A DNA stretch of 64,000 nucleotides, from NCBI RefSeq assembly GCF_002289565.1, contig NZ_NTFY01000015.1, positions 1 through 64,000 of the forward strand, given 5' to 3'. The notes under the pieces were generated by a model that was given only the letters and a program-made list of their open reading frames with translations, made no database searches and had not been told where the DNA came from. The stretch comes from Rhodopirellula sp. SM50 (GTDB taxonomy: Bacteria; Planctomycetota; Planctomycetia; Pirellulales; Pirellulaceae). How positions within the stretch are numbered: the first letter of the stretch is position 1; every line of letters starts with the position of its first letter. The position numbers and the translations under genes were made by a program. Positions 30,788 through 38,070 of the stretch are shown one piece after another.

Positions 30788-30997
30788 ACGTGGCGTAAGC
30801 TTCCAGCTTGCGATTCCCGGCACGGCAAGCTAGAAGCGTCACGTCTCGTTACGGGGCTCCGCCTCGTAACGCAATGCTCAAGAGGCTCCCGCCTCATACC
30901 CGACCGGTCGTGCAGGCGGAGCCTGTCGATGTCCCGTCCCCAGGCGGAGCCTGGGAACGAGGTCCCAGCCGGCATGCATAGCATGCCCTACTTGGTT
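30788..30997. repeat. Mixed family D, G and E repeats
   Basis: Family D GTGGCGTAAGCTTCCAGCTT, then GGGCTCCGCCTCGTAACG, GAGGCTCCCGCCTC, AGGCGGAGCCTGGGAACG pieces and GGCATGCATAGCATGCCCTA. This fills the gap between two convergent genes. Confidence 0.8.
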
Positions 30998-32490
30998 TTC
31001 CAGACCGGGTCGTGATGGGATTCGCTGGAAGATTCGAACCAGCGGGTGAGTGTCATTTTTTGGCGGGTATAAAAGTGGACGCCTTCGGTGCCCTGAATGT
31101 GCAGGTCCCCGAAGAACGATTGATTCCAACCGGTAAACGGCAACCACGCCATCGGCGCGGGCACGCCGACGTTGATGCCGATCATGCCGGCGTTGAAGTG
31201 ACGTTTGAATTCGCGTGCCGCATATCCGTCACTGGTGAAGATCGAGGCGCCGTTTCCGAACGGACAGGACTTGCCGATCGCCAGCGCCTCTTGCAACGAA
31301 TCGGCGCGAACGACCGACAACACCGGTCCAAAGATTTCTTCTTTCCACAGCGGCATATCGGTGGTGACTTGGTCGACGACGCTGGGACCGAGCAGAAAGG
31401 CGTCACCGGCATCCACTTGGCGGCCGTCCAAAACGACCTTGGCCCCCGCTCGCTCGGCCGTTTCCAAATAACCTGCCACACGATCGCGATGGTCGGCGCT
31501 GATCACCGGTCCCATCTCGGCTGCGTCATTGTTGTCGGTCGGTGCGACTTTCAGATTGCCGGCAAAACCGACCAATTGATCGAGCAACGGTTCCGCGGCT
31601 GATCCGACGGCGATCGCGACCGAACCGGCCATGCATCGCTGACCGGCACAGCCGAATGCCGACGCGGCCAGCGCCTTGGAAGACTGGTCGACGTCGGCGT
31701 CGGGCATGATGATCAAATGGTTTTTGGCTCCGCCGGCCGCCTGCACCCGTTTCCCGTGCGCGGTGCCGACTTGGTAGACGTGTTTGGCGACGGATGTCGA
31801 ACCGACAAATGACACCGCCGCGACGTCGCGATGCTGCAGCAGCGCGTCGACGACTTCTTTCCCGCCATGGACCAGATTGATCACCCCGTCGGGAAGTCCC
31901 GCTTCGACGAGCAGTTCGACCAACCGGATCGCACTCAGCGGCACCTTTTCGCTGGGCTTGAGCACGAACGTGTTTCCGCAGGTGATCGCGATCGGAAACA
32001 TCCACAGCGGAACCATGTTGGGAAAGTTGTAAGGCGTGATCCCCACGCAAACCCCGACGGGATGTCGATTCGTTTCTCCGTCGACGCTTTCGGCGATTTG
32101 CGGGAACGTGTCGCCGGAGAGCATCACGGGAACGCTGCAGGCGAATTCGACCATTTCCAGCCCGCGTTGGACTTCCGCACGAGCTTCTCCGTACGTCTTG
32201 CCGTGTTCGCGAGTCACCAGCCGTGCCAATTCCTCAAAGTGACGGGCGATCAGTTCGCGATAGGCGAACATCACGCGAGCCCGCTCGACGACCGGGGTTT
32301 CAGCCCACTCGGGCAGGGCATTCCCGGCCGCGGCCACGGCGGCATCGACGTCGGAGCTCGAGCCGACCGGAGTTCTTGCGATGATTTCACCGGTCGACGG
32401 ATTGAACACCGGTGTGGAAGCGTTTGCAGCGCCGCCGTCCATCCATTTCGATCCGATCCGCAGTTTCGCCGTCGGTGTTTCTGTACTCAT
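30988..32490 (-). CDS. mmsA: CoA-acylating methylmalonate-semialdehyde dehydrogenase
   Basis: Converts malonate or methylmalonate semialdehyde plus CoA and NAD+ to acetyl-CoA or propionyl-CoA with CO2. The 500-residue protein has normal family length. Signatures: VCVGITPYNFPNMVPLWMFP, FVLKPSEKVPLSA, SFVGSTSVAKHVY, and the catalytic FGCAGQRCMAG (Cys ~285), and a C-terminal PMAWLPFTGWNQSFFGDLH typical of MmsA rather than generic aldehyde dehydrogenases. Start ATG 32490 (MSTETPTAKLRIG). Transcribed divergently from the beta-ureidopropionase-like gene, with a family C hairpin in the shared promoter space. Fits the last step of pyrimidine/beta-alanine degradation. Confidence 0.95.
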   Translation of the reverse strand: MSTETPTAKLRIGSKWMDGGAANASTPVFNPSTGEIIARTPVGSSSDVDAAVAAAGNALPEWAETPVVERARVMFAYRELIARHFEELARLVTREHGKTYGEARAEVQRGLEMVEFACSVPVMLSGDTFPQIAESVDGETNRHPVGVCVGITPYNFPNMVPLWMFPIAITCGNTFVLKPSEKVPLSAIRLVELLVEAGLPDGVINLVHGGKEVVDALLQHRDVAAVSFVGSTSVAKHVYQVGTAHGKRVQAAGGAKNHLIIMPDADVDQSSKALAASAFGCAGQRCMAGSVAIAVGSAAEPLLDQLVGFAGNLKVAPTDNNDAAEMGPVISADHRDRVAGYLETAERAGAKVVLDGRQVDAGDAFLLGPSVVDQVTTDMPLWKEEIFGPVLSVVRADSLQEALAIGKSCPFGNGASIFTSDGYAAREFKRHFNAGMIGINVGVPAPMAWLPFTGWNQSFFGDLHIQGTEGVHFYTRQKMTLTRWFESSSESHHDPVWKTK

Positions 32491-32631
32491 CGCGCATTCC
32501 GTTGAGCTGGCGTTCGGTTGAATTTGGGAGTGAAATCGGGTGACGCGGGCGCGTCGGCAAAGTCGTATCACGAAAATCACCCGATGCTGTTAAGCTTAGC
32601 GTTCACGTGGTTGACGTGGGTATGGCTTCCA

Positions 32632-32690
32632 GTGGGATAGGCTTCCAGCCTGTCAAATCCAGGCAATGACAGGCTGGAAGCCTCTCCCAC
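32632..32690. repeat. Family C inverted pair in the mmsA/amidohydrolase divergent promoter space
   Basis: GTGGGATAGGCTTCCAGCCT... and ...GACAGGCTGGAAGCCTCTCC form a near-perfect hairpin (one mismatch seen) between the two divergent starts. It could also act as a DNA cruciform or binding site, but its presence at many unrelated loci argues that it is a generic repeat. Confidence 0.88.
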
Positions 32691-32715
32691 TTTCGACAAC
32701 GAGGAAATTTGACCG

Positions 32716-33588
32716 ATGGCACGAATCGTCCGAGGGGCTTTGATCCAGGCAAAGCTTTGTGAACCCGCGACATCGCCGGTGGAAACGATCAAGGCGTCGA
32801 TGATCGATTTGCACGTCGATCTGATTGCCCAGGCCGCCGACCAAGGTGCACAGGTCTGCTGTTTGCAAGAACTGTTTTACGGCCCGTATTTTTGCGCCGA
32901 ACAAGACGCCAAGTGGTACGAGATGACCGAGCGGGTCCCCGACGGCCCGACGACGAAGTTGATGATGGAACTGGCCAAGAAGCATCAAATGGCGATGATC
33001 GTGCCGGTCTACGAAGAAGACCTGACGGGGGTTTATTACAACGCCGCCGCGGTGATCGATGCCGACGGCTCGTACCTGGGCAAGTTTCGCAAAATTCATA
33101 TCCCGCACTGCAGCCCCGGGTTTTGGGAGAAGTTTTACTTCCGCCCCGGCAACCTCGGCTATCCGGTCTTCGACACGCGGATCGGAAAAGTCGGCGTCTA
33201 CATTTGTTACGACCGACACTTCCCCGACGGGGCGCGATGCCTGGGACTCGGCGGGGCGGAGATCGTGTTCAACCCCAGTGCGACCGTCGCCGGCCTGAGC
33301 GAATACTTGTGGAAACTCGAGCAACCGGCCCACGCGGTCGCCAATCAGTACTTCGTCGGTGCGATCAATCGCCCCGGCACCGAAGCCCCCTGGAACATCG
33401 GCCAGTTTTACGGACAAAGTTATTTCTGTGACCCGCGCGGCCAGTTGTTCGCGCAGAGTGAGAAACGCGACGAAACGGACATCGTGATCGGAGAGATGGA
33501 CTTCGACATGATCCGCGAAGTCCGTAACACCTGGCAATTCTTTCGCGATCGACGCCCGGAGACGTACGGGGCAATCACGGAGTTGTAG
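32716..33588 (+). CDS. Nitrilase-superfamily amidohydrolase, probable beta-ureidopropionase
   Basis: Cytoplasmic carbon-nitrogen hydrolase of 290 residues with the Glu-Lys-Cys triad visible: E52 in CLQELFYGPYF, K126 in KFRKIHIPH and C164 in VYICYDRHFPDG. Closest in style to N-carbamoyl-beta-alanine amidohydrolase and N-carbamoylputrescine amidase. The neighbours (PreA, NCS2 permease, class III aminotransferase, MmsA) favour the former, which yields beta-alanine or 3-aminoisobutyrate, CO2 and ammonia. ATG 32716. Followed after 137 bases of family C repeats by the permease gene. Polyamine function remains an alternative. Confidence 0.87.
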   Translation: MARIVRGALIQAKLCEPATSPVETIKASMIDLHVDLIAQAADQGAQVCCLQELFYGPYFCAEQDAKWYEMTERVPDGPTTKLMMELAKKHQMAMIVPVYEEDLTGVYYNAAAVIDADGSYLGKFRKIHIPHCSPGFWEKFYFRPGNLGYPVFDTRIGKVGVYICYDRHFPDGARCLGLGGAEIVFNPSATVAGLSEYLWKLEQPAHAVANQYFVGAINRPGTEAPWNIGQFYGQSYFCDPRGQLFAQSEKRDETDIVIGEMDFDMIREVRNTWQFFRDRRPETYGAITEL

Positions 33589-33594
33589 CAAAAC

Positions 33595-33717
33595 TGGGAT
33601 AGGCTTCCAGCCTGTCGATTCAGAGTGTGGGATAGGCTTCCAGCCTGTCGATTCAGGGGATGACAGGCTGGAAGCCTATCCCACATCAGGGGATGACAGG
33701 CAAGATGCCTATCCCAC
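33595..33717. repeat. Family C repeats, two direct and two inverted units
   Basis: Two direct TGGGATAGGCTTCCAGCCTG units followed by two inverted GACAGGCTGGAAGCCTATCC-type units (the last reads GACAGGCAAGATGCCTATCC). They fold as a double stem inside the presumed operon, immediately upstream of the permease start, and account for a false 22-residue N-terminal extension of that frame. Confidence 0.9.
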
Positions 33718-33725
33718 TTAATTCT

Positions 33726-35135
33726 ATGCAGAACAAAATCATTTACGGCCTAGACGATCGGCCGCCGCTTGGCAAAGCGGTGGTGCTGGCGATGCAACAT
33801 GTCCTGACCATGTTCGGTTCGACGGTGGCGGTCCCCTTGTTGCTCGGACCGGCGATGGGCATGGACACCGCTGCGATTGCGTTGTTGATTTCCAGTGTGA
33901 TGCTCTGCTCGGGGATCGCGACGCTGATTCAAGCGACGTTCGGCTCGCGATTACCGATCATCCAAGGGGTCAGTTTTTCGTTCCTCGCGGCGTTCTTCAT
34001 GATCATCGCGACGATCCACCCCGAAGGCGAAACCGTCACGCCGGGTGCCGCGATGCCGTACATCGCCGGTGCGATCCTCGTCGGCGCCGTTTTCGAAATC
34101 GCGGTCGGTTTCAGCGGGCTGATGGGCCAGATTCGAAAAGTGCTCTCGCCGGTCGTCGTCGGCCCGGTGATCATGTTGATCGGATTGGCGCTGTACTCTG
34201 CCGGCGCCCCGATCGCCGCGTCCCACTGGCCGATCTCCATTTTGACGATGGTGTTGATCACCACGTTTTCGTTTATCTGGGCGCGTCATCACCTGATTTT
34301 CCAGATGTTCCCGATGCTGTTGGCGATTGTCGGCGCGGTCTCGGTTTGCGCCCTCTGTTCCTTGCTCGGCATCTTTGGTCCCGGTCATCCGGCGCGGCCG
34401 AATCTGGACGCCTTCGAGCAGGCGTCTTGGTTTCGCCTCAACGACGTCGTCTTGCCCTGGGGCATGCCCAAGTTTCAACTGGGATTCATCCTCGCGGTGA
34501 TCGCCGGATACTTGGCGTCGATGATCGAAAGCTTTGGCGACTACCACGCCTGCAAGCAGATGGCCGGTGGTGGTGATCCGACGCCGGAAGAAATCTCCAG
34601 GGGGATCGGATGCGAAGGCATCGGTTGCGCGCTGACGGGAATCTTTGGCGGTTTCAGCTCGACGTCGTATTCGGAAAACGTCGGGCTGATCGGATTGACC
34701 AAAGTCGGCTCGCGGTATGTCGTTCAGCTCGGGGCCGTGATCCTGATCCTGCTGGGATTATTCGGAAAATTCGGAGCCTTGGCTGCCGCGATCCCGCAAC
34801 CGGTCGTCGGCGGGTTGTATTGTGTGATGTTCGGGTTGATCTCCGCGGTCGGCATTCGACAGTTCGCCAGGGCCGAATTGTCCAGTGACCGCAACCTGTT
34901 TATCGGAGGATTCGCATTGTTCATGGGAATCAGTGTCCCCTACTATTTCGCCAACGGCGGCTCCGAAGCAGTCCAAGCGACGTTCATCGATGGCTTGGAC
35001 GATGTGATCAACGCGATCGGACAAACGGGAATGGCGGTCGCGGCAATCCTCGGGATCACGCTGGACAATCTCATTCCAGGAACACGTCGAGAACGCGGCT
35101 TGGAGCCGCGGGAACCTTTCACGGAGCCATCGTGA
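33726..35135 (+). CDS. NCS2-family nucleobase:cation symporter (uracil/xanthine permease type)
   Basis: Inner-membrane nucleobase importer of 469 residues with 12-14 hydrophobic segments. Family marks: LAMQHVLTMFGSTVAVPLLL near the start, SRLPIIQGVSFSFLAAFF, IESFGDYHACKQM (substrate-binding Glu), GFSSTSYSENVGLIGLTKVGSR, and AAIPQPVVGGLYCVMFG. ATG 33726 (MQNKIIYGL) is used because upstream codons are repeat sequence. The stop overlaps the start of the aminotransferase (GTGATG). Genomic context suggests uracil or thymine as substrate; xanthine or urate cannot be excluded from sequence. Confidence 0.93.
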   Translation: MQNKIIYGLDDRPPLGKAVVLAMQHVLTMFGSTVAVPLLLGPAMGMDTAAIALLISSVMLCSGIATLIQATFGSRLPIIQGVSFSFLAAFFMIIATIHPEGETVTPGAAMPYIAGAILVGAVFEIAVGFSGLMGQIRKVLSPVVVGPVIMLIGLALYSAGAPIAASHWPISILTMVLITTFSFIWARHHLIFQMFPMLLAIVGAVSVCALCSLLGIFGPGHPARPNLDAFEQASWFRLNDVVLPWGMPKFQLGFILAVIAGYLASMIESFGDYHACKQMAGGGDPTPEEISRGIGCEGIGCALTGIFGGFSSTSYSENVGLIGLTKVGSRYVVQLGAVILILLGLFGKFGALAAAIPQPVVGGLYCVMFGLISAVGIRQFARAELSSDRNLFIGGFALFMGISVPYYFANGGSEAVQATFIDGLDDVINAIGQTGMAVAAILGITLDNLIPGTRRERGLEPREPFTEPS

Positions 35136-36511
35136 TGCCACCCGTCGATCTGCCCCAAGCCCAATTGCCGCCGTGCCGCCATACGCCAGAACCCTACGAC
35201 GGACCGTCGCGTGATGAAGTGCTGGCGATGCGCCACCAATACGTCAATCCGGGCGTGCTGACGTATTATCGCGAACCGCTGATGATCGTCGAAGGGAACA
35301 TGCAGTACCTGTGGGACGAGACCGGCAAACGCTACCTGGATGCGTTCGCGGGGATCGTCACGGTCAGTGTCGGGCACTGTCATCCCCACGTGGCCCAGGC
35401 GGTCCAATCACAAGCGGGTCGGCTGCAGCACACCACCACGATCTACCTGCACCCGACGATCGCCCAATTTGCCGCCAAGCTGGCGTCCAAAATGCCGCCC
35501 GACCCCGCCGGCATTCCGCTGGACCGAACCTATTTCACCAACTCGGGCAGCGAAGCCAATGAGATCGCGGTGCTGATGTCGCGCGAGTTCACGGGAAATC
35601 AAGACGTCGTCGCTCTCCGCAACGGTTATCACGGCGGCACCACCACCGCGATGGGCATGACGGCGCACGGGACCTGGAAATTCCCCAGCAACCCGCAACC
35701 CAACATCACCCACAGCGTGCCCGGCTACTGCTATCGGTGCCCGCTGGGGCTGCAGTATCCCAGTTGTGAACTGAAGTGTGCCCACGACATCAAGAATGTG
35801 ATCGAGTACCAGACACCGGGCCAAATCGCTTGCTTCATCGGTGAACCGATCCAAGGTGTCGGCGGAGCGATCGTGCCACCGCCGGAATTCTTTTCGATCG
35901 TGTACGACATCGTGCGTCAGCACGGCGGGCTGTGCATCGCCGATGAAGTTCAAGGGGGATTCGGACGCACCGGAAAACACTACTGGTCGCACCAGAACTG
36001 GGGCGTCAGGCCCGACATCATCACGATGGCCAAAGGGATCGGCAACGGCGCGCCGCTGGCCGCCGTGACCGCGACCGAGCCCGTGGCGTCGACGATGACC
36101 CACCGAGTCCACTTCAACACCTTTGGCGGAAACCCCGTTTCGATGGCGTCGGGATTGGCGACAATGGAAGTGATCGACGCCGAGGGAATTCAAGAGAACG
36201 CGGCCGTGATCGGCGAGTTTCTCCTCGATGGCCTAATGCAGTTGAAAGAAAAACATCCGCTGATCGGAGACGTCCGCGGCATGGGACTGATGCTGGGCGT
36301 CGAACTGGTCAAAGATCGAACGTCCAAAGAACCGGCGTCGGCCGAAGCCGCGGAACTGATGGAACAGACCAAACGGCGCGGCTTGATCCTCGGCAAAGGC
36401 GGATTGTTCGGCAACACCATGCGGATCAAACCGCCAATGTGTCTCACCAAGGATGACGCCCAATTCATGCTGGCAACGATCGATGAATGTTTAGCAGAGA
36501 TGGGGAAATAG
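35135..36511 (+). CDS. Class III PLP aminotransferase (AGXT2 / beta-alanine type)
   Basis: PLP-dependent aminotransferase of 458 residues. Motifs: DAFAGIVTVSVGHCHP, FTNSGSEANEIA, YHGGTTTAMG, CIADEVQGGFGRTG (Asp binding the PLP nitrogen), and MAKGIGNGAPLAAV with the Schiff-base Lys at about 300. A Cys-rich insert (YCYRCPLGLQYPSCELKCA) is typical of the AGXT2-like branch, which handles beta-alanine and 3-aminoisobutyrate. The ATG at 35135 overlaps the permease stop codon, so translation is probably coupled. In this cluster it would yield malonate or methylmalonate semialdehyde for MmsA. Confidence 0.93.
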   Translation: MPPVDLPQAQLPPCRHTPEPYDGPSRDEVLAMRHQYVNPGVLTYYREPLMIVEGNMQYLWDETGKRYLDAFAGIVTVSVGHCHPHVAQAVQSQAGRLQHTTTIYLHPTIAQFAAKLASKMPPDPAGIPLDRTYFTNSGSEANEIAVLMSREFTGNQDVVALRNGYHGGTTTAMGMTAHGTWKFPSNPQPNITHSVPGYCYRCPLGLQYPSCELKCAHDIKNVIEYQTPGQIACFIGEPIQGVGGAIVPPPEFFSIVYDIVRQHGGLCIADEVQGGFGRTGKHYWSHQNWGVRPDIITMAKGIGNGAPLAAVTATEPVASTMTHRVHFNTFGGNPVSMASGLATMEVIDAEGIQENAAVIGEFLLDGLMQLKEKHPLIGDVRGMGLMLGVELVKDRTSKEPASAEAAELMEQTKRRGLILGKGGLFGNTMRIKPPMCLTKDDAQFMLATIDECLAEMGK

Positions 36512-36524
36512 GCTGTATTTTGTA

Positions 36525-36895
36525 GGGCATGCTGTGCATGCCTGCTGTCACGCTCAGCGTGACCGACACCCGCTCGTTCCAAGGCTCTGCCTTGGAACGG
36601 GGATTCCCCGAGGCTCCGCCTCCGGCATGATGGAACGGAGGCAGAGCCTCCACAAAGTGCGTCCCCAGGCGGGAGCCTGGGAACGAGAGAGGGCATGCTG
36701 TGCATGCCCACTATCACGCTCAGCGTGACCGACACCCGCTCGTTCCAAGGCTCTGCCTTGGAACGGGGATTGCCCGAGGCTCCGCCTCCGGCATGATGGA
36801 ACGGAGGCAGAGCCTCCACAAAGTGCGTCCCCAGGCGGGAGCCTGGGAACGAGAGAATGCATGCCTGCTGTCACGCACAGCGTGACCGACACGAC
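36525..36895 (+). repeat. Two 166-bp tandem repeats plus a partial third
   Basis: Units at 36525-36690 and 36691-36855 are nearly identical over their length, and 36856-36892 begins a third. Each unit is itself composed of family E palindromes (GGGCATGCTGTGCATGCC, CACGCTCAGCGTG) and family G palindromes (TTCCAAGGCTCTGCCTTGGAA, GAGGCTCCGCCTC, CAGGCGGGAGCCTG). The array lies between the aminotransferase and preA-like genes. A family D piece (GGCAAGCTGGAAGCTTACCC) follows at 36903-36923, 20 bases before preA. Confidence 0.93.
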
Positions 36896-36942
36896 TGCAT
36901 TGGCAAGCTGGAAGCTTACCCCACAACTGAAAGACGACTGAG

Positions 36943-38070
36943 ATGCCGACGCTCGAAACGACTGTCAATGGAATCAAATTCCCCAATCCGTTCGTGATCG
37001 GATCGGGACCGCCGGGAACCAACGCCCGGGTGATCTGCCGTTCCTTTGCCGACGGTTGGGGCGCGTCGTGTGCGAAAACGGTCAGCTTGGATGCCTCCAA
37101 GGTCATCAACGTTGCTCCACGCTACGGACGATTGAAGGACAGCTCCGGCGAGCCCTACGGCTGGGAGAACATCGAGCTGATTTCCACGATGTCGTTCGAC
37201 CAGTGGATCGACGAATACAAACGGGTCAAAGACGCCTATCCCGACAACGTCTTGATCGCTTCGATCATGGAAGAGTTCAACAAAGACGCCTGGTTCGAAA
37301 TCATCGAGCGCTGCGAGGCCGCCGGCGTGGACATGTTCGAGTGTAATTTCTCCTGCCCCCACGGATTGCCCGAACGCAAGATGGGCGCGGCGATGGGCGA
37401 AAACCCGGATATCTTGAGCGAGGTGTGTACTTGGGTGCGGGCCGCGACCACCAAGCCGGTGTGGGCCAAGATGACGCCCAATGTGACGCATATCGAAGAT
37501 CCTTCTCGGGCTTGTTTGGCTGCGGGCCTGGACGGCATCACCGCGATCAATACCATCCGAAGCGTCATCGGCGTCGACTTGGAAACATTGCGGCCGATGC
37601 CCACGGTTGAAGGCTACACGACACCGGGCGGCTATTCCTGCAAGGCCGTCAAGCCGATCGCGCTGCGGATGAACATGGAGATCGCCACGTTGATCCGGGA
37701 CGAATTCCCCGGACGCACCCTGTCAGGGCTGGGAGGGATCGAGACGGGGGAGGACGCTGCAGAATTCTTCTTGCTGGGCGCCGACACCGTTCAAGTCTGC
37801 ACCGGCGTGATGAAACACGGCTACAAGCTCGTGGAATCCATGAAGGAACAGTTGCTCGCGTTCATGGACATGCACGGCTTCGAAACCCTGGATGATTTTA
37901 AGGGCAAAGCGCTGCCCTATTTCACGACCCACGCGGACCTGGTCCGGCGTCAGGCGGACGCGAAAGCGGAGAAGGCGGAAGCCAAGGCAAAGCGGGCTGC
38001 CGGGATCACGACCGACGAAAACTGGGACGGAGACGAGTTCGTCAAGCAGTCCGACGATTTGGTCGGCTAG
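36943..38070 (+). CDS. preA: Dihydropyrimidine dehydrogenase, PreA-type catalytic subunit (no C-terminal ferredoxin part)
   Basis: Reduces uracil/thymine to the dihydro forms. The 375-residue protein has the dihydroorotate-dehydrogenase-like FMN barrel: LETTVNGIKFPNPFVIGSGP at the start, ECNFSCPHGLPERKMG with the active-site Cys (~137), KMTPNVT, LAAGLDGITAINTI, LSGLGGIETGEDAAEF and VQVCTGVM. E. coli PreA is ~411 residues and ends in a two-cluster ferredoxin domain; here the C-terminus instead is an Ala/Lys/Glu-rich helix (KAEKAEAKAKRAA) and acidic tail without any CxxCxxC. No PreT is nearby, so the electron donor is unclear. Separated from the aminotransferase gene by 431 bases of repeats. 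Confidence 0.9.
   Translation: MPTLETTVNGIKFPNPFVIGSGPPGTNARVICRSFADGWGASCAKTVSLDASKVINVAPRYGRLKDSSGEPYGWENIELISTMSFDQWIDEYKRVKDAYPDNVLIASIMEEFNKDAWFEIIERCEAAGVDMFECNFSCPHGLPERKMGAAMGENPDILSEVCTWVRAATTKPVWAKMTPNVTHIEDPSRACLAAGLDGITAINTIRSVIGVDLETLRPMPTVEGYTTPGGYSCKAVKPIALRMNMEIATLIRDEFPGRTLSGLGGIETGEDAAEFFLLGADTVQVCTGVMKHGYKLVESMKEQLLAFMDMHGFETLDDFKGKALPYFTTHADLVRRQADAKAEKAEAKAKRAAGITTDENWDGDEFVKQSDDLVG

Follow-up and report, generated by a model that had tools for sequence, protein, structure and literature searches.

The stretch of DNA analysed here (the window; 64,000 nucleotides, positions 1–64,000 of contig NZ_NTFY01000015.1) comes from Rhodopirellula sp. SM50, whose genome, labelled G000, comprises 9.8 Mb in 146 contigs (completeness 100). 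The window holds an island of five neighbouring genes which, together with a dihydropyrimidinase gene (hydA) on another contig of the same genome (C57), very probably make up a complete reductive pathway of pyrimidine catabolism. Its first enzyme, a short form of the dihydropyrimidine dehydrogenase subunit PreA, would be of the plant PYD1 type and independent of PreT; we put the probability of this reading at about 80%. At the level of the pathway the finding is known and ordinary. It gains interest from the first enzyme, apparently a bacterial variant of plant type that works without PreT: the class to which this dehydrogenase belongs agrees with the plant enzyme, and in no case was it accompanied by PreT in our data.

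Gene content, conservation of gene order, active-site residues, the absence of the iron–sulphur (Fe–S) domain V and the absence of a PreT-level match were computed directly. Genes were typed by NCBIfam and Pfam profile searches against the cut-offs of the models, and comparisons with solved chains were added. An earlier note on this DNA had proposed that five neighbouring genes serve reductive pyrimidine degradation, with dihydropyrimidinase and PreT missing. All five open reading frames are present, and mmsA is, as it had said, transcribed on the opposite strand to the other four:

30988..32490, minus strand: mmsA, CoA-acylating (methyl)malonate-semialdehyde dehydrogenase (TIGR01722); a GTG-start open reading frame reaches 32580
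32716..33588, plus strand: nitrilase-superfamily amidase, beta-ureidopropionase-like (PYD3/UPB1 type), 290 aa (PF00795)
33726..35135, plus strand: NCS2 family nucleobase permease (PF00860), likely start ATG 33726, substrate presumed
35132..36511, plus strand: class III aminotransferase, AGXT2/PYD4-like by context (PF00202)
36524..36855, no strand: tandem repeat spacer, a 166-nt element present twice (98% identical) between aminotransferase and preA
36943..38070, plus strand: preA, short, PYD1-type dihydropyrimidine dehydrogenase, 375 aa (NF006183 over 3–332 of 422)

Short PreA and the search for PreT

The product of preA matched the PreA model NF006183 with 382.9 bits (cut-off 335), over profile positions 3–332 of 422 only. 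The score bears out the PreA-like dehydrogenase of the earlier note, which had left unmentioned that the C-terminal Fe–S part is missing. The window PreA is without the part that holds two [4Fe-4S] motifs (domain V) and consists of the flavin mononucleotide (FMN)/uracil domain alone, with a C-terminal tail of the form FTTHADLVxRQ...WxGDxFV. Nine short PreAs used as queries against 84,980 species genomes gave 370 relatives, the best 80 of which were kept as scan loci; all counts over 80 loci given below thus describe the nearest relatives. A CxxCxxC-type motif was found in none of these 80 and in none of 19 short planctomycete loci. The tail motif HxxLVxxQ was present in 80/80 relatives and WxGxxF in 77/80; in the 19 planctomycete loci, which are more diverse, the counts were 16/19 and 8/19, and HxxLVxxQ occurred in 0/21 rows of the Fe–S type. 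Since all 80 relatives are without the Fe–S motif and share the tail, the missing C-terminus is no local truncation.

We compared 14 positions of pig dihydropyrimidine dehydrogenase (DPD), which we took to be the relevant ones. Twelve of them (K574, N609, N668, S670, C671, H673, K709, N736, T737, G794, G795 and C816) were identical in 108/108 short PreAs (104 distinct, as the scan loci and the fetched planctomycete loci overlap and four of the 108 are duplicates); pig S817 is Thr in all 108, and the position of pig T793 is variable. With 12 of 14 active-site positions invariant, the catalytic half of the short PreA is, judging by its residues, intact. The solved chains matched by the window PreA include the mutants C671A and C671S. 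As a separate observation, the residue before the catalytic Cys (position 137 of the window PreA) is Gly in 13/13 PreT-linked planctomycete PreAs but Ser in pig and in 108/108 short PreAs.

A single structure prediction for the window PreA (mean pLDDT 79.6, with the tail at residues 331–375 at 54–72) had pig DPD as its top solved match (TMq 0.64–0.70, but with a root-mean-square deviation of 10–14 Å), and dihydroorotate dehydrogenases (DHODHs) of classes 1A and 1B came next. The prediction supports a DPD fold and says nothing on the electron donor. The rank of the DHODHs and the FMN-only architecture would both suit an enzyme that works like class 1A DHODH or fungal dihydrouracil oxidase, with FMN only and coupled to fumarate/succinate or O2, and fungal dihydrouracil oxidases related to class I DHODH do exist (available text of PMC9585004). 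We nevertheless consider such coupling unlikely: oxidation of dihydrouracil would oppose the direction of a catabolic cluster, the window PreA is closer by sequence to DPD than to DHODH (225 versus 93 bits), and the dihydropyrimidine dehydrogenase of rice (DHPD) is described as showing no activity when dihydroorotate and fumarate were supplied as in a class 1A assay (available part of PMC9930899).

Among planctomycetes, 43 genomes had a PreA match. Besides the genome of SM50 itself, 37 of them were fetched (12 full-length PreAs, 19 short and 6 others), and G153, G240, G338, G379 and G393 were left out of the locus set; the full-length loci are the 12 at 620 bits or more, plus G023. PreT lies directly beside preA in 12/12 fetched full-length loci and in G023, where an open reading frame tried as PreT (L027:7682–9220) proved to be a PilT ATPase and the real PreT is L027:10642–11985. 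Beside short preA, PreT was found in 0/19 fetched loci of the phylum, and in none of the short loci of the family, the best 80 scan loci or the additional loci L164–L168 of the Roseibacillus phylum (five, all with further pathway genes), sets that partly overlap. We also searched whole genomes with the PreT of G023 (E ≤ 1e-30; G098, with its short preA in two pieces, was left out). The query gave at least 344 bits and at least 42% identity in 13/13 full-length-PreA genomes. Across 28 short-PreA genomes its maximum was 257 bits (31–41% identity), with no match at this threshold in 20/28 and none near preA; in 11 further short-PreA genomes from the scan loci the maximum was 237 bits, and 6/11 had no match. 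No genome examined combined short PreA with PreT. As 28/28 short-PreA genomes are without a match in the PreT range, PreT is probably not needed by the short enzyme.

The absence of PreT, which the earlier note had stated for the window, extends to the whole genome of SM50, where no good candidate was found. Three proteins carry a Fer4_20 domain. One, on contig C59, resembles GltD beside GltB, and another (C130) is a long protein with a NuoG-like N-terminus, both as judged by eye. The third, an NfnB/GltD-type flavoprotein on C92, bears on the possibility that a PreT-like protein encoded elsewhere donates electrons in trans, the enzyme then being PreTA with a scattered subunit. Its Fer4_20 domain scores 126.7 bits and it is the sole match to the PreT query in the genome at E ≤ 1e-30 (233.8 bits, 37%); such matches exist in 8/28 short-PreA genomes, and their top identity, 41% in G134, is close to that of the lowest PreT (42%). 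However, the C92 protein exceeds the cut-off of TIGR01316 (574.8 versus 471.75 bits) and adjoins an NfnA-like gene (by eye), for which it was rejected as PreT, and 20/28 plus 6/11 short-PreA genomes have no such match at all. In addition, the short PreA is without the Fe–S domain, which in pig DPD takes part in electron transfer. We therefore hold donation in trans to be improbable, about as much so as the coupling discussed above.

Gene set and lower-pathway enzymes

That the genes serve one pathway, reductive pyrimidine degradation, is well supported, for members of two phyla have the same genes grouped around short preA. Of the best 80 loci, 79 are labelled Planctomycetota or Verrucomicrobiota. 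Pathway genes near preA were mmsA in 52 loci, aminotransferase in 51, hydA in 51, nitrilase in 30, M20 carbamoylase in 27, an NCS1 permease in 21 and an NCS2 permease in 17; at least one further enzyme is present in 75 loci, at least two in 63 and at least three in 49. These are lower bounds, as many scan loci end at contig ends. The comparison of gene order that the earlier note had called for thus finds the island set conserved in relatives, with hydA no more than 10 kb from preA in 51/80 loci. The remaining locus of the 80, L090 (JANQAI010000005.1, 1.4 Mb), is a metagenome-assembled genome (MAG) labelled Magnetospirillum with a short-preA cluster of the Verrucomicrobial type; it is either a transfer or a mislabelled genome.

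Within this set, amidase and permease are each exchanged between two families. Nitrilase alone occurs in 29 of the best 80 loci, M20 alone in 26, both in 1 and neither in 24; NCS2 alone occurs in 17, NCS1 alone in 21, both in none and neither in 42. (A Fisher test of these swaps treats related loci as independent, and its p-values are too small.) The amidase swap partly tracks phylum, with exceptions: the planctomycetes L028 and L034 have M20, and nitrilase is found in L168, which belongs to the phylum of Roseibacillus. In L051, the single locus with both amidases, a second, distant hydA homologue stands beside the M20 gene, and the two perhaps belong to a purine cluster. The simplest reading of the swaps would be that both amidases act on the same N-carbamoyl amino acid and that both permeases carry the same bases.

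Dihydropyrimidinase, given earlier as a missing step, is not missing. On contig C57 (about 113307–114713) hydA reaches 510.2 bits with TIGR02033 (cut-off 393.25), its nearest solved chain being hydantoinase 1gkp (654.7 bits). Orthologues with 65–67% identity to it adjoin short preA in three further genomes of the family (G004, G067 and G095), and one with 84% identity lies on the short-preA contig of the planctomycete MAG HKST-UBA42 (L042). In the three nearest loci (L039–L041) no hydA stands within 10 kb of preA, so the gene probably moved away from preA in the lineage of SM50. The genome has 13 Amidohydro_1 matches, 5 of which were scanned with NCBIfam; as dihydropyrimidinases we rejected proteins on C121 (guanine deaminase-like) and C92 (aminofutalosine deaminase-like), both below cut-off, and on C56 and C71, both of the dihydroorotase type by NCBIfam. 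The identity of MmsA is as first read: it scores 612.9 bits with TIGR01722 (MMSDH; cut-off 448.5), and 10/10 solved chains at E ≤ 1e-90 are (methyl)malonate-semialdehyde dehydrogenases.

The amidohydrolase had been called beta-ureidopropionase-like, and beta-ureidopropionases do lead its solved relatives, by a small margin (Drosophila CG3027, 208 bits; beta-ureidopropionase, 189; N-carbamoylputrescine amidohydrolase, 182); genomic context agrees. Its likely catalytic triad, read from motifs, is E52, K126 and C164. The earlier note had itself raised N-carbamoylputrescine amidase as the identity that would undo the proposal, the island then being a chance assembly or a polyamine cluster. The best NCBIfam model for the protein is indeed that of AguB, TIGR03381, and the genome encodes an agmatine deiminase family protein (PF04371, 340 bits, on C17). 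The AguB score, however, is 240 bits against a cut-off of 410.25, and another nitrilase of the genome (C62), itself below the cut-off at 290.7 bits, is the better AguB candidate. Moreover, across two phyla the island nitrilase is found alongside preA and hydA, with an M20 carbamoylase in its place elsewhere, which makes a polyamine role highly improbable.

Given this gene set, the organism could use uracil or thymine as a source of nitrogen and carbon. It has been considered whether the main role of the pathway is instead to supply beta-alanine for coenzyme A. Aspartate 1-decarboxylase PanD (PF02261), the one other source of beta-alanine searched for, had no match in the genome, in a search that was positive in 8/14 control genomes. 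With no PanD match, beta-alanine from the pathway might feed coenzyme A by analogy with Rhizobium etli, which has no panD and in which an enzyme of the uracil pathway supplies beta-alanine (available text of PMC7142369). As a main role this appears doubtful, since the island aminotransferase and MmsA would consume beta-alanine.

As for layout, the start of the aminotransferase gene overlaps the permease stop codon (35132 versus 35135). A dispersed 16-mer, GACAGGCTGGAAGCCT, has 13 sites in the window (3529–38101), where none is expected, and 6 of them fall in island spacers or at the island edge. One overlaps the listed NCS2 start at 33660, so that the true permease start is probably ATG 33726. 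Promoter and terminator scans of the window gave no excess over shuffled sequences.

Electron donor and points of doubt

What the permease, amidase and aminotransferase act on, which way the reaction runs and what donates the electrons are inferred from sequence and gene context. The NCS2 permease would import uracil or thymine, which the short, FMN-only dehydrogenase of the PYD1 type would reduce to the dihydropyrimidine. It would do so without PreT, its FMN most likely being reduced by a general carrier shared with other pathways (ferredoxin or flavodoxin with a housekeeping reductase). Dihydropyrimidinase (hydA on C57) would open the ring, the nitrilase-type beta-ureidopropionase would free NH3 and CO2, and the AGXT2-like aminotransferase would turn beta-alanine or beta-aminoisobutyrate into the semialdehyde. 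Finally, MmsA would convert malonate semialdehyde to acetyl-CoA, or methylmalonate semialdehyde to propionyl-CoA.

Among the families present in at least 4 of the best 80 loci (one sequence of each inspected by eye), we found no recurrent redox gene near short preA besides the pathway genes, a survey that rare or distant partners would escape. A xanthine-dehydrogenase-like family, near short preA in 5 loci, probably belongs to purine breakdown. Because no further redox family shows up repeatedly, we think a dedicated partner encoded nearby unlikely and take a general electron carrier as the best guess; we give it even odds, and the other half falls to direct NAD(P)H, to coupling with a small molecule and to a PreT-like protein in trans.

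Several observations weigh against the reading of the island as a PreT-independent pyrimidine pathway of the plant type. First, no electron carrier is conserved next to preA, which leaves the donor a guess, and the sequence link to the plant enzyme depends on an approximate Arabidopsis sequence. Second, PreA is patchy. At E ≤ 1e-50 it was not found in three other genomes of the same genus and was found in 12/119 genomes of the family, and at E ≤ 1e-60 in 43/294 genomes of the phylum; the window preA itself has 98% identity to its counterparts in Stieleria sedimenti and strain TBK1r. Of the best 80 loci, 5 carry no other pathway enzyme. Third come the closest matches of the permease and the aminotransferase. 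The permease is of the NCS2 type, as first described (PF00860; NF037981 NCS2_1, 74.4 bits, cut-off 40), but no uracil permease model was reached (RutG 131.9 versus 758.65; PRK10720 120.9 versus 477). Its best NCBIfam model is the xanthine permease PbuX (268.4 bits, below 414.15; TIGR00801, at 234.4, is also below its 291.8), and among solved chains SLC23A1 comes nearest (283 bits), with uracil permease giving just 81; PbuX and SLC23A1 also speak against the view that the two permease families carry the same bases. The aminotransferase is class III (PF00202, 316 bits; pyridoxal phosphate lysine K301 by motif). None of its 25 best NCBIfam models (of 69) is above cut-off, and its nearest solved chain is ethanolamine-phosphate phospho-lyase (332 bits), so that the AGXT2-like substrate is assigned from genomic context.

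Fourth, a third class of PreA-like proteins (L035, L138–L140, L142 and L143) has one or two Fe–S motifs and no PreT in the fetched stretch; these proteins are 28–42% identical to the full-length PreA of G023, and some stand beside hydA. In L141 the PreA is broken, and all that the fetched stretch shows of PreT is a fragment at its far edge. For this class (L138–L143 and L035) PreT was looked for in the fetched stretches only, the genomes lying outside the whole-genome PreT search. Fe–S motifs and PreT are not coupled everywhere, and the rule is not clean in the reverse direction. The PreT comparison covers planctomycete full-length forms; in the Verrucomicrobial sample (the phylum of G413) 24/194 genomes had a PreA match, 6 of them short. 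In 299 genomes of the phylum of G417 we found, apart from the G417 copy, 39 full-length PreAs and a single short protein (G838), distant at 32% and with no pathway genes beside it, and 63 plasmid records matching PreA were all below 60% identity. Cyanobacteria and algae were outside the PreA searches, and other phyla were hardly sampled.

Plant PYD1 and other known systems

In plants, a similarly reduced enzyme has been described. Rice DHPD keeps the FMN and uracil sites, while Fe–S, FAD and NADPH sites are absent; its final 40 residues are hard to align with those of the pig enzyme, no activity was obtained from the recombinant protein, and a PreT-like partner was not found (all from the available part of PMC9930899). 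For Arabidopsis PYD1, with active-site residues N256 and T257, and for Brevibacillus PydA, the available part of PMC2713857 likewise reports no activity and an unidentified partner. The short PreA matches the published description of PYD1, judging by its length of about 400 residues, its FMN and uracil sites and its lack of NADPH, FAD and Fe–S sites.

For a direct comparison we used an Arabidopsis PYD1 sequence that we take to be approximate (418 residues, about 8 short). N, T, T and E stand in it where the published positions 256, 257, 280 and 328 minus 8 would place them, and the two range ends, I299 and H349, are shifted by one more. This approximate sequence shares 57% of its residues with the window PreA (379 aligned columns, tail included). 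Against the 108 short PreAs its median identity is 63%, against the 13 PreT-linked PreAs 43%, and against pig DPD its identity is 38%. A quick tree was built from 69 rows (every fourth, that is 20, of the 80 scan sequences, plus fetched planctomycete-set PreAs longer than 300 aa; no bootstrap). In it the short PreAs, with the approximate plant row inside, form one side of a branch with SH-aLRT 99, and this approximate row nests within the short clade (starred SH-aLRT values 97–99). With its long branches, no bootstrap and almost no bacteria beyond two phyla, the tree cannot show the direction of transfer. Kinship of the short PreA with the plant enzyme is a strong lead, not proof.

We tentatively propose, at somewhat under even odds, that the short PreA represents a distinct, PreT-independent class of electron input common to Planctomycetota/Verrucomicrobiota and plants, that plastid PYD1 descends from the bacterial clade, and that a general carrier donates the electrons. 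A description of the short-PreA class in Planctomycetota or Verrucomicrobiota was not found in open-licence PMC papers; the available part of PMC11136935 names preT in a gene list. The available parts of PMC2713857 and PMC9930899 describe recombinant plant enzymes as inactive and the electron donor of plant uracil breakdown as not found. A bacterial clade with the plant-like reduced architecture makes the donor question testable by gene deletion and protein co-purification and, if the proposal is true, the bacterial clusters would offer a genetically simple means of identifying the donor that is missing for the plant enzyme. In addition, the label 'NAD-dependent dihydropyrimidine dehydrogenase subunit PreA', earned through the NCBIfam cut-off, may mislead on mechanism for the short clade (80/80 scan loci are short).

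The island can be set against several known systems. The plant pathway of PYD1, PYD2, PYD3 and beta-alanine aminotransferase resembles it in having a short dehydrogenase with FMN and uracil sites only (available parts of PMC9930899 and PMC2713857). PreT was found in neither. The island is bacterial, its genes usually stand near other pathway genes, and it includes a permease and mmsA; in the genome of SM50 hydA is on another contig. Plant PYD3 is a nitrilase-type beta-ureidopropionase, as the island amidase probably is. Bacterial PreTA, as in E. coli and in planctomycetes with full-length PreA such as G023, shares the family of the PreA catalytic domain (NF006183), whereas the window PreA is without Fe–S domain V and its genome without a PreT-level match; short PreAs have a median identity of 43% to the 13 PreT-linked PreAs, and Ser137 where all 13 have Gly. 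Pig DPD has in common with the short PreA domain IV, with catalytic Cys671 and the uracil/FMN residues (median identity of the 108 sequences to pig 536–853, 41%), whereas domains I–III and V have no counterpart in the short enzyme. Animal beta-ureidopropionases (Drosophila CG3027, human UPB1) are, by a small margin, the best solved relatives of the island amidase, which at 290 aa aligns with the animal chains from their residue 70–76, leaving about 70 N-terminal residues without counterpart. Finally, PydA of Brevibacillus agri, compared by description only, is like plant PYD1 in being without the N-terminal GltD-like half, and inactive (available part of PMC2713857).

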